Positions 1,332-9,684 of a stretch of 64,000 nucleotides of DNA are shown piece after piece. The DNA comes from an uncultured Allomuricauda sp. GTDB taxonomy: Bacteria; Bacteroidota; Bacteroidia; Flavobacteriales; Flavobacteriaceae. Positions within the stretch are counted from its first letter, which is position 1. Each line of letters begins with the position of its first letter. A program made the translations under genes and the position numbers. The notes below the pieces were generated by a model, which saw only the letters and a list, made by a program, of their open reading frames with translations, searched no databases and had not been told where the DNA came from. Location of the stretch: assembly GCA_937899065.1 (NCBI GenBank), contig CALBPG010000010.1, positions 1-64,000 of the forward strand. The letters run 5' to 3'.

Positions 1332-1397
1332 CATTCTCAAAATTAACCTCTGACGAGATACGTGAAAGTTGATTTTGAATAACGCAAACGAAATACC

Positions 1398-2232: not shown

Positions 2233-4491
<2,259 letters not shown>

Positions 4492-4581: not shown

Positions 4582-5400
4582 ATGTTTGTATTGAAAAGAC
4601 TGACAGTATTCGTACTTGTCGCATTGATTCTTTCCTGTGAGGATGTCATCCAAGTAGACCTGCCCAGCTCCGAACCAAAATTGGTGATTGATGCGCTCAT
4701 CGGGTATAATGAAAACAATGGAGAACCCATTACCGTGGGACAGGTTGAGCAAACCTTGACCACTCCATTTTTTGAAGAAGAGAACCCTCCAGCAGAAAAT
4801 GCCACGGTTTCCATAATCGACGAAGAGACTGGTGAGATTTTCCAACTTTTTGAAAATGAACCGGGTGTTTTCAGAACCGGATTTCCTGATTTACAATTTG
4901 GTAGAACATATACTTTAGTGGTCCTATACCAAGGAGAAACTTTTACCGCTACTGAACAACTGTCTCCTTCCCCCGTTATCGATAATGTAGAACAAGGCGA
5001 TGGATTTTTATTTGATGAAGACGAAGAAACCGAGGTCAAGGTTACCTTTACCGATTTACCCAACGAACCCAATCATTATTTGTTCTCTTTTGGGTTTGAT
5101 AATTTTTTGGTCATAGATGATGATTTCTTCCAAAATGAACAATTGACCTTCTCGTATTTTTACGAGGATGTTGACCCCGGCGATTTGCTCACCATAACCC
5201 TTTTCGGTATCGATAGCCGTTTTGCTGATTTTGCGGAACAGGCTTTGACCCAATCTGGCGAAAATGGCGGGGGCCCCTTTCAAACCCCTCCGGCCAATGT
5301 GCGGGGCAACATTGTGAACACCACTAATATTGACAATTTTCCGTTCGGTTATTTTGCCTTAAGCGAGTTCGATGTTCGCATACTCACGGTGCAACCCTAG
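4582..5400 (+). CDS. DUF4249-type lipoprotein (copy 1)
   Basis: Lipobox LILSCEDVIQVDLPSSEPKLVIDAL; homologous to the ORFs at 7859 and 8758; next to a TonB receptor. Confidence 0.8.
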   Translation: MFVLKRLTVFVLVALILSCEDVIQVDLPSSEPKLVIDALIGYNENNGEPITVGQVEQTLTTPFFEEENPPAENATVSIIDEETGEIFQLFENEPGVFRTGFPDLQFGRTYTLVVLYQGETFTATEQLSPSPVIDNVEQGDGFLFDEDEETEVKVTFTDLPNEPNHYLFSFGFDNFLVIDDDFFQNEQLTFSYFYEDVDPGDLLTITLFGIDSRFADFAEQALTQSGENGGGPFQTPPANVRGNIVNTTNIDNFPFGYFALSEFDVRILTVQP

Positions 5401-5454
5401 CCAATTGTTAATTTTAAGTAAATCTCTTCCAAAATCCATAACTTTAAAAAAACC

Positions 5455-7857
5455 ATGCTAATGTCCAAAAACCAGCTTCTACTCCTATTTCTACTCTTAT
5501 CCACCTCATTTTCTTTTGCACAACAACGATACACCTTAAGCGGTACAGTCCGCGAGGCTTCTAGTAATGAAACCTTAATTGGGGTAACCATAGCGATACC
5601 TGAGCTAAAAACAGGTACCACAACTAATGAATATGGTTTCTATTCTATTACGGTACCATCAGGAGAGTATAAGATTGTTGCGTCATATTTGGGTTTTGCA
5701 GATATTTCCCAAACCGTCTCTTTGAACACGAACACGAAATTGGACTTAAAGATGACCGAGGAGACACAAGAATTGGAGGAGGTTGTGCTTACTGAGGACG
5801 TTGAGCGTATTGATATTCGAAAACCGCAAATGAGTGTCAACAATCTAGCGGTAAGTACCATCAAGCAAATTCCAGTGGTACTCGGAGAAGCGGATGTAAT
5901 CAAGTCCTTGGTACTCCTACCTGGAGTTACAAACGCGGGTGAAGCGTCTTCTGGTTTTAACGTTCGGGGGGGTGCTGCAGACCAAAATTTGATTTTATTG
6001 GATGAAGCCATCATTTTCAACTCTTCCCACCTTTTTGGCTTCTTTTCGGTCTTCAATCCAGATGCGATAAAAGATGTAAAGTTATTTAAAGGAGGTATTC
6101 CCGCGCGGTATGGGGGTCGGGTATCCTCTGTTCTTGAGATTTTCCAAAGGGAAGGAAATAGCAAAGATACCAAAGTTAGTGGCGGTATTGGAGCCGTTGC
6201 AAGCCGTTTGTTGGTAGAGGGGCCAATTATAAAAGACCGCACTGCCTTTTTGATTGTGTGTAGAGCTTCATATGCTCATTTGTTCCTGCCCTTGTTCGAT
6301 ATCGACAATAGGGCGTATTTCTATGACCTGAATACCAAACTCAGTCATAAAATCAACGACCGCAATAGTATTTACCTTTCCGGATATTTCGGGAGAGACC
6401 TCTTCAGCATTAACGATAGTTTTGTCAACACCTATGGCAATGCTGTTGGGAACTTCAGATGGAATCATCTCTTTTCTGATAAATTATTCTCCAACCTATC
6501 TTTAATCTACTCCGATTATTTTTATGGATTGGAATTGGACTTTGTTGGATTTGAATGGGATTCCGGGATTCAAAACTTCAACCTGAAGTATGACCTAAAA
6601 CATTACATCAGCGACAAACTTCAAATCAATTACGGACTCAATAATATTTACTATGTCTTCAATCCAGGTAAAATCGAACCGAACCGTGAGGATTCTGGAA
6701 TTGTCGCCGAACAACTAACCAAAAAATATGCGAATGAAGCCGCTGCTTATATTGGTGTGGAACAAAAGGTTACCCCTAACCTTAGTGTAAATTACGGGCT
6801 TCGTTTTAGCGTATTCAATCGATTGGGACAAGACGAACTCTTCGTATACGAAAACAATCAACCTGTATTCTTTGACCCTTTTCAATTGGTGTATCGTGAG
6901 GCAGAACCCATCGATACTATTAATCCAGGAAGGGGAACCAACCTGAAAACCTTTACCAACTTTGAGCCAAGGGTTTCCATGGCGTATACCATAAATGACA
7001 ACAACTCAGTAAAAGCAAGCTATACGCGTTTGGCACAGTATTTACATTTGCTTTCGAATACTAGCTCCCCTACCCCGTTGGATGTCTGGACGCCGAGCGG
7101 TCCCTTTGTCGAACCACAGTTGCTGGACCAATATGCCCTCGGGTATTTTCGAAACATCAAGAATGGAGAATACTCTTTGGAACTAGAAGGTTTTTACAAA
7201 GAAGTACAAAACCGTATTGATTACATCGATGGGGCAGACCTGATTGCCAATGACGCCATCGAACAGGTCATCTTAAATGGTGAAGCGAGGGCATATGGAT
7301 TAGAATTTCTGTTCCGAAAGAATGAAGGTGCCCTTACCGGTTGGGTTTCCTATACCCTTTCACGTTCGGAACAGCGCACTCCAGGACGAGTACCAACGTT
7401 CGACAACGGTCGATCTAATCAAGAGACGGGTATCAATAACGGGGAATGGTATAGTACTCCCTTTGACAAAACCCACGACTTGGCCATCTATGGGAACTAC
7501 GAACTGAACAAAAAATGGAGTTTCAATACCAACTTTATTTATCAAACCGGACAGCCTACAAACTTTCCGGTAGGTCAATTTGACTTTCAAGGACTTGTTG
7601 TGCCATTCTTTGGGCAACGAAACCAAACCAGGCTTCCAGACTATCATAGGATGGACATTGCTGCAACACTCCGACCCAAGCGGAACCCGAAAAAAAAGTT
7701 CCAATCCGAATGGGTTTTTAGCGTTTACAACGTTTATAATCGTATGAATGCAGCTTCCATCAACTTCAGACAAAATGAAGATACTGGGCGCAACGAAGCC
7801 ATTCGAACAGCAATATTTGGTGTTGTGCCCGCAGTAACCTATAATTTCAAGTTTTAA
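5455..7857 (+). CDS. TonB-dependent receptor with N-terminal carboxypeptidase-regulatory-like domain
   Basis: Signal peptide, YTLSGTVREASSNETLIGVTIAIPELKTGTTTNEYGFYSI, plug motif GFNVRGGAADQNLILLDEAIIFNSSHLFGFFS. Confidence 0.92.
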   Translation: MLMSKNQLLLLFLLLSTSFSFAQQRYTLSGTVREASSNETLIGVTIAIPELKTGTTTNEYGFYSITVPSGEYKIVASYLGFADISQTVSLNTNTKLDLKMTEETQELEEVVLTEDVERIDIRKPQMSVNNLAVSTIKQIPVVLGEADVIKSLVLLPGVTNAGEASSGFNVRGGAADQNLILLDEAIIFNSSHLFGFFSVFNPDAIKDVKLFKGGIPARYGGRVSSVLEIFQREGNSKDTKVSGGIGAVASRLLVEGPIIKDRTAFLIVCRASYAHLFLPLFDIDNRAYFYDLNTKLSHKINDRNSIYLSGYFGRDLFSINDSFVNTYGNAVGNFRWNHLFSDKLFSNLSLIYSDYFYGLELDFVGFEWDSGIQNFNLKYDLKHYISDKLQINYGLNNIYYVFNPGKIEPNREDSGIVAEQLTKKYANEAAAYIGVEQKVTPNLSVNYGLRFSVFNRLGQDELFVYENNQPVFFDPFQLVYREAEPIDTINPGRGTNLKTFTNFEPRVSMAYTINDNNSVKASYTRLAQYLHLLSNTSSPTPLDVWTPSGPFVEPQLLDQYALGYFRNIKNGEYSLELEGFYKEVQNRIDYIDGADLIANDAIEQVILNGEARAYGLEFLFRKNEGALTGWVSYTLSRSEQRTPGRVPTFDNGRSNQETGINNGEWYSTPFDKTHDLAIYGNYELNKKWSFNTNFIYQTGQPTNFPVGQFDFQGLVVPFFGQRNQTRLPDYHRMDIAATLRPKRNPKKKFQSEWVFSVYNVYNRMNAASINFRQNEDTGRNEAIRTAIFGVVPAVTYNFKF

Positions 7858-7858
7858 G

Positions 7859-8761
7859 ATGAGAGTATCCGTTATTTTTCTGTGTGTTATCAGTCTCTGC
7901 TTCTTTTCTTGTGAAGATGTTATCGATGTGGACTTGCCTGAAACCGAAACGAGACTTGTAGTAAATGGCTTGTTGCGAGTAGATTTTGGAGAACAATTCG
8001 TGCCTGTTGAGATTAGAGTTACGGAATCCAGTAGTTTCTTTGAAGAGAATCAAGTTACCACTTTGGAAGACGCCTTGATTATTTATGGTGTTCCTGACCC
8101 AAACGCTCCTGAGATTATCGTCAATCAGCAAGTTTCAAACTTGGCTGAATCAGCTCCTGGAACAGGTATCTATATTCCAGACCCAACTTTTGACGAAGAC
8201 CAACGTATTCCTACCGCTGCAATCGCTCCCGGTACCGTTTTCATCCTAATCATTGAACACGAAGGAAGACTATACGCCGCTAGAACACCATTTTCACCTA
8301 GTGTCCCCATTGATAACATCGAACAGGGTACGGAAACATTGTTTGACGAAGATGATACCGAAATCGTGCTGACCATCACCGATTTACCTGAAGTAGAAAA
8401 CTACTATGTTTTTGAATTTGGCCAAGGTGAGTTTCTAGCTTTGGATGACCAGTTTATTGATGGACAAGAGTTTGAATTCTCATTTTTTCCAGAGCGTGAT
8501 TTATTTCCTGGAGATGTACTTCCTGTAAGCATTCTAGGTGCCGACCAACAATTTTTTAATTATGTGGATTTGTTGGTAGAACAAACTGAAAATGATGGGG
8601 GTGTTTTCGAAACTCCTGCCGCAACGGTGCGCGGAAATATTTTTGATGTCACAGGTCTGGACAACACCTTACTTTTTGACAATGTGAATCGGCCAGACGC
8701 ATTCCCCTTGGGCTATTTTGCAGTGGTACAAGAATTCACGGAAACCTTGACAATTGAATGA
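7859..8761 (+). CDS. DUF4249-type lipoprotein (copy 2)
   Basis: SCEDVIDVDLPETETRLVVNG lipobox and N-terminus; tandem paralogue of the next ORF. Confidence 0.8.
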   Translation: MRVSVIFLCVISLCFFSCEDVIDVDLPETETRLVVNGLLRVDFGEQFVPVEIRVTESSSFFEENQVTTLEDALIIYGVPDPNAPEIIVNQQVSNLAESAPGTGIYIPDPTFDEDQRIPTAAIAPGTVFILIIEHEGRLYAARTPFSPSVPIDNIEQGTETLFDEDDTEIVLTITDLPEVENYYVFEFGQGEFLALDDQFIDGQEFEFSFFPERDLFPGDVLPVSILGADQQFFNYVDLLVEQTENDGGVFETPAATVRGNIFDVTGLDNTLLFDNVNRPDAFPLGYFAVVQEFTETLTIE

Positions 8762-9684
8762 GCAAAAATCGCAAATCACGTATTGGAACTTTTGGTCTAT
8801 GTGCGTTTTGCGCTTTCATATTGCTTTCTTCCTGTGAAGATGTCATAGATGTGGATTTACCAGAAACGGAGACGCGTTTGGTGGTTAATGGAATCGTGCG
8901 AGTAGATATTACTCAGGAATTTGCCAATGTAAAAATCAGATTTACAGAATCCTCCAGTTTTTTTGACGACAACACTATTGCACAAGTTGAGAGTGCCGTT
9001 ATTCTAGTTGGGGAATCAGACCCCGAAGACCCTTTTAACTTGAACTTTGGCACCTCTATTTTGAAAGAATTTGTTCCAGGAACAGGTATTTACGAGCCGG
9101 ATACGGTAGGAAATGATGTTGATGACCGCATACGGACTGATTTTTTGAACCCAAACACCACTTTCTTTTTGATTGTGGAATATCAAGGTAGACGTTATGC
9201 GGGTCAAACCATGTATGTACCGACTGTTCCCATTGATAACCTTGAACAAGGTGATGAAACCCTATTTGATGATGATGACACCGAAATTAAAGTGACCATT
9301 ACGGACATTCCTGAAGAAGAAAACTACTATGTTTTTGATTTTCAAGAAGGTGAATTTTTAGCCCTTGACGACCAATTTATTGATGGTCAGGAGTTTGAAT
9401 TCTCATTTTTTCCAGAACGCGACTTGAGTCCGGGAGAAGAATTACAAGTTAGCATTCTGGGAGCTGATCAGCAGTTTTTCAATTACATTGACCTTTTGGT
9501 AGAACAAACCGAAAATGACGGTGGGGTTTTTGAAACGCCTGCCGCAACGGTTAGAGGTAATATGTTTGATGTCACCGGCTTGGACAATCGTGAGATTTTC
9601 GATAACGTGGGGCGACCAGATTCTTTTGCCTTAGGCTATTTTGCTGTTATTCAAGAGCTTAATCAGACGATAATCATTGATTAA
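8758..9684 (+). CDS. DUF4249-type lipoprotein (copy 3)
   Basis: Overlaps copy 2 by ATGA; C-terminal half nearly identical to copy 2. Confidence 0.8.
   Translation: MSKNRKSRIGTFGLCAFCAFILLSSCEDVIDVDLPETETRLVVNGIVRVDITQEFANVKIRFTESSSFFDDNTIAQVESAVILVGESDPEDPFNLNFGTSILKEFVPGTGIYEPDTVGNDVDDRIRTDFLNPNTTFFLIVEYQGRRYAGQTMYVPTVPIDNLEQGDETLFDDDDTEIKVTITDIPEEENYYVFDFQEGEFLALDDQFIDGQEFEFSFFPERDLSPGEELQVSILGADQQFFNYIDLLVEQTENDGGVFETPAATVRGNMFDVTGLDNREIFDNVGRPDSFALGYFAVIQELNQTIIID

Follow-up and report, generated by a model that had tools for sequence, protein, structure and literature searches.

In the window studied here (the whole stretch of DNA that was analysed, 64,000 nucleotides from an uncultured Allomuricauda sp.), one TonB-dependent receptor is encoded next to three DUF4249 lipoproteins, and the covariation of protein distances suggests that the C-terminal domain of these lipoproteins is the receptor-coupled part, a statistical result which is the main new result of this analysis. 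DUF4249, a domain without an assigned function, is common in Bacteroidota. The reading favoured here, with moderate confidence, is that the three lipoproteins are alternative or cooperating lids of a single receptor, with a C-terminal domain that is coupled to it and an N-terminal domain that is free to diverge.

Gene content and predicted folds

The preliminary description of this DNA gave the gene order as DUF4249, TonB receptor, DUF4249, DUF4249, with the last two genes coupled by an ATGA. All four open reading frames and the ATGA are indeed present, as follows:

4582..5400, + strand: DUF4249 lipoprotein of the upstream slot (u, copy 1), 272 aa (Pfam PF14054, 62 bits)
5455..7857, + strand: TonB-dependent receptor, 800 aa, with signal peptide, CarbopepD_reg domain, plug and beta-barrel (Pfam)
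7859..8761, + strand: DUF4249 lipoprotein of downstream slot 1 (d1, copy 2), 300 aa (Pfam PF14054, 52.4 bits)
7970..8323, + strand: variable N-terminal domain of copy 2, 49% identical to copy 3, in whose model it is a beta domain
8324..8665, + strand: conserved, receptor-covarying C-terminal part (linker and core) of copy 2, 87% amino-acid identity to copy 3
8758..9684, + strand: DUF4249 lipoprotein of downstream slot 2 (d2, copy 3), 308 aa (Pfam PF14054, 66.9 bits)
8833..8892, + strand: N-terminal stretch of mature copy 3, beginning with the lipidated Cys (CEDVIDVDLP...), a motif of the whole family with low column entropy (1.17)
8893..9246, + strand: variable N-terminal domain of copy 3 (identity profile, model, entropy)
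9247..9588, + strand: conserved C-terminal part (linker and core) of copy 3 (identity profile, model, entropy)

Copies 1, 2 and 3 all score above the curated Pfam cut-off for DUF4249 (PF14054; 28.5 bits), and CarbopepD_reg_2 is found in the receptor together with PF07715 Plug and OMP_b-brl_4, the last two above the Pfam cut-off. For the receptor, an ATG at 5461 is as plausible a start as that at 5455. A lipobox and the motif CE(D/E) are present in 51 of 51 DUF4249 copies of the genus, and the upstream copies form a separate clade in the tree (support 100/100). Two further elements lie on the 5' side of the locus: the gene of a monomeric isocitrate dehydrogenase (icd, window 2242-4491), which in many genera is invariably found upstream of the receptor, and an L19-Flavobacteria ribosomal leader (RF03130, 38 bits; window 1344-1371) just 5' of the L19 gene.

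Copy 2 begins one base past the receptor stop codon (the median receptor-to-d1 gap across loci is 3 bases) and overlaps copy 3 in the ATGA at 8758-8761, while the upstream slot lies 54 bases from the receptor in the window, and 50-67 bases from it in roughly half of the u-carrying loci. This arrangement, with u set apart and the downstream copies tightly coupled, makes separate control possible, and the lids could then be interchangeable proteins differing mainly in when they are made and not in what they bind; the strong N-domain divergence between copies within one genome suggests more than expression, however, and such a subfunction by expression appears improbable.

Modelled in its mature form (pLDDT 90.5), copy 3 consists almost entirely of beta structure: strands occupy residues 16-139 and 152-281, with a single helix (213-227), and DUF4249 is accordingly modelled as two beta domains. 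The best PDB matches of this model are tandem Ig/FN3-like proteins and transglutaminases, with query TM scores of 0.16-0.27, and a sequence-profile search for a solved DUF4249 homologue found none. The two modelled beta domains, and DUF4249 as the sole family match, not SusD, speak against the earlier proposal of SusD-like lids. Assignment of the receptor to the SusC/RagA class was also rejected (TIGR04056, 57 bits against a cut-off of 368.25). The receptor model (pLDDT 60.9) has long barrel strands and is usable for rough strand ends only; the match of the receptor profile to 9gbc_A, which the XusAB paper names, was confined to the N-terminal part of that entry.

Distribution and turnover of the lipoprotein slots

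Scans of genomes recovered 120 distinct receptor loci, in Flagellimonas, Allomuricauda, Croceitalea, Maribacter, Zobellia, Arenibacter, Dokdonia and other genera, and at least one DUF4249 gene is adjacent in 120 of 120, in agreement with the surface-lipoprotein/receptor unit that had been proposed. From the sequences, it is likely that the DUF4249 lipoproteins are lids. In much of the family Flavobacteriaceae, the receptor is located after icd and, in the genus and its near relatives, is then followed by a convergent gntP. In two genomes (G001 and G004), icd directly adjoins gntP, the receptor and the lipoproteins being missing together, and no receptor orthologue was found in a third (G017).

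The slot sets of the 120 loci comprise d1 only (71 loci, including that of G005, whose upstream copy sits on another contig), d1 and d2 (25), d1 to d3 (4), u and d1 (6), u, d1 and d2 (7), and u only (7). Upstream copies alone are thus present in 7 loci, downstream copies alone in 100 and both in 13: each slot is dispensable singly, never all together. On the receptor tree, the presence of u changed at least eight times, the presence of any downstream copy at least three times and the tandem state at least 24 times. The d2 copy of G031 (locus L042) groups with that of G033 (locus L041), while the d1 copy of G031 groups with that of G030, which suggests transfer or old retention of the second lid.

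This turnover also bears on a reading in which the lipoproteins are lids for one and the same substrate and phages or predators acting on the exposed surface, and not new ligands, drive the divergence of their N-domain. The very frequent gain and loss of slots, with the changes of tandem state given above, is consistent with it, as is the high conservation of the receptor across genera (69-84% identity in 80 loci of named genomes), such as one common substrate would entail; but no positive selection was seen on the N-domain of close pairs (omega 0.03-0.14), a result that also counts against the mechanism favoured here, and this reading is considered rather unlikely.

In the genome from which the window comes, all five DUF4249 genes found adjoin receptors of the same subfamily. 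An AraC-type regulator stands before the second receptor-DUF4249 pair (L203; contig C238, 967-6996) and a multicopper oxidase after it, which is a possible metal lead for this sister receptor, and a third pair (L204; contig C56, 2-3067) has its receptor cut by the contig start.

Divergence of the tandem copies and gene conversion

The region-by-region comparison of 7859-8761 with 8758-9684 shows that the divergence between copies 2 and 3 is not uniform. Identity amounts to 100% (amino acids) and 77% (nucleotides) in the first 20 mature residues, 49% and 56% in the middle, 74% and 75% in the linker, and 92% and 79% in the C-terminal core; it falls to 58% and 60% in the last ~31 residues, where divergence climbs again. 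Of the mosaic tandem pair put forward in the preliminary description, the diverged middle and the conserved ends are retained, but the near identity exists at the protein level only and does not extend into the C-terminal tail. The identical N-terminus is a family motif and not a mark of conversion: across 111 proteins, mean column entropy is 1.17 bits in the first 20 residues, 2.03 in the N-part and 1.37 in the C-part.

Synonymous differences between copies 2 and 3 are saturated throughout (pS 0.74 in the middle, 0.76 in the C-terminal part), and about half of the shared residues are encoded by the same codon. Because synonymous sites are saturated everywhere, the contrast between the C-half and the middle is one of protein constraint, dN being 0.46 in the middle versus 0.10 in the C-terminal part. 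As judged from the aligned sequences, C-terminal conservation is a family trait, which explains in part the contrast seen in the window pair. The similarity of the C-halves of this pair nevertheless exceeds the family trend: where proteins of different genomes are 50-60% identical in the first part, their second parts average 63.5 +/- 8.3%, against 87% in the window pair.

An old tandem duplication with a C-domain that evolves slowly family-wide would make conversion unnecessary for the window pair. The equal saturation of synonymous sites in both parts and the lower entropy of the C-part argue for such plain rate heterogeneity, and so does the C-half of copy 3, to which the d1 copy of another genome (G429) is closer (89%) than copy 2 is (87%), that is, at least as good a match. 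Against it stand the conflicting trees of the two halves. For the first half, the genus tree joins copy 3 to the d2 copies of G026 and G032 (100/100) and a clade of copies 2 and 3 is rejected (p 1e-4), whereas for the second half copies 2 and 3 form a group (93/95). With more genera, the first half again rejects the clade of copies 2 and 3 (p 1e-4), and the second half pairs them, with lower support (78/82), inside a clade (98/92) mostly composed of d2 copies; the C-terminal part of copy 2 thus clusters with d2-type copies, its N-half does not. A placement of copy 2 beside the neighbours that it has in the first half is likewise rejected by the second half (p 0.009), which does not reject a clade of all d2-type copies (p 0.087) or a clade formed by the five nearest of them when copy 2 is left out (p 0.38). 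In log-likelihood units, the cost is 606 + 157 for the real split, compared with 97-198 in total for six random splits. The whole-topology AU test was dropped as a proof of recombination, random column splits being rejected too, and the evidence for recombination is limited to the size of the likelihood difference and to the tests of named clades.

The clear case is found in G018, a single-contig genome, where d1 and d2 share 92% nucleotide identity over codons 120-245 (96-98% in the core) versus 65% outside. The trees place the N-half of this d2 among other d2 copies and its C-half among d1 copies, and G018 d1 is therefore the probable donor. Rate heterogeneity cannot yield a tract of 96-98% nucleotide identity and is refuted for G018; for the window pair, it is considered rather unlikely. 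In the window pair, the corresponding tract shows 78% versus 58% nucleotide identity, but at saturated synonymous sites. A permutation test on the longest tract of similarity responds to family-wide conservation as well, and only G018 was taken as clear. Identity shifts, and the conversion tracts begin, at about mature residues 120-140, close to the boundary between the two modelled domains.

On the strength of these alignments and trees, conversion limited to the C-terminal part is taken to occur in the DUF4249 family, and probably also took place, long ago, in the lineage of the window. The earlier suggestion that gene conversion homogenises the C-half accordingly finds support at the level of the family (discordant half-trees, fresh tract in G018) but none as a recent event in the window pair: recent homogenisation is rejected on the saturated synonymous sites, and any conversion between copies 2 and 3 must be old for the same reason.

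Covariation with the receptor and comparison with known systems

Distance correlations were calculated over 73 loci with a single downstream copy, isocitrate dehydrogenase (IDH) distances being removed as a control for species divergence. Given IDH, the partial correlation with receptor distances is 0.66 for the C-domain (0.74 within the genus) and 0.23 for the N-domain (0.12 within the genus, Mantel p 0.17); when the other domain is also taken into account, the values are 0.64 and 0.03, respectively. These correlations are distinct from evidence of contact, and residual phylogeny is not fully removed: weak partial correlations (0.26-0.29) remain between the C-domain and unrelated genes. Noise is not the cause of the difference between the domains, since the raw correlation with IDH is about equal for both (0.60 and 0.61), nor is linkage, since the N-domain lies between the receptor and the C-domain on the DNA. 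Furthermore, among the top 100 column pairs by mutual information, 72 involve the C-domain for the receptor and 52 for the IDH control. The covariation of the C-domain with the receptor agrees with the initial idea that the conserved half is the receptor-coupled half.

In the mechanism proposed for the window, three DUF4249 surface lipoproteins would cap one TonB-dependent receptor and may be used alternatively. The C-terminal domain, apparently constrained and tracking the receptor sequence from species to species, would make the contact with the receptor; purifying selection, together with occasional conversion confined to this domain, would preserve the likeness of the C-domains of the tandem copies. 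The N-terminal domain, located behind the lipid anchor, would diverge freely between copies and most likely meets the cell exterior, where it could serve in ligand capture or be exposed to phages.

A broader version of this mechanism is advanced only tentatively. Lids would be modular, one conserved receptor being served by one to four slots; coevolution and domain-limited conversion would keep a C-terminal docking domain matched to the local receptor, and the N-domain would be a replaceable ligand or exposure module, so that a lineage would alter what its receptor accepts by changing lids, not receptors. Docking by the C-domain and selection by the N-domain, if real, would explain how a conserved receptor could serve several ligands, and the domain split would then show where to cut for binding assays. 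The locus is a natural experiment, with the same receptor and differing lid sets in dozens of species.

In outline, the proposed unit resembles the SusCD and RagAB importers of glycans and peptides, which also combine a beta-barrel receptor with a surface lipoprotein; it differs from them in the two predicted beta domains of DUF4249, without a SusD match, and in the low SusC/RagA score of its receptor (57 bits versus 368). It also resembles XusAB, with its DUF4374 lid (PMC13142918), and BtuBG, in which a TonB receptor is capped by a non-SusD surface lipoprotein and the lid delivers the ligand, although XusB is a beta-propeller, which DUF4249 is not. In the literature searched, a single paper names DUF4249, and no account was found of a receptor with several DUF4249 lids or of conversion among them. 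DUF4249 has already been proposed as a partner of a TonB-dependent transporter, in the case of BT2172 (transporter) and BT2173 (DUF4249) of Bacteroides thetaiotaomicron (Price et al. 2023, a preprint on lids for TonB-dependent transporters, as quoted in PMC11003636). According to that source, the two genes adjoin each other, as in the window, and almost always occur together across dozens of genera; a single partner is described there, whereas up to three DUF4249 genes per receptor and domain-limited conversion are reported here.
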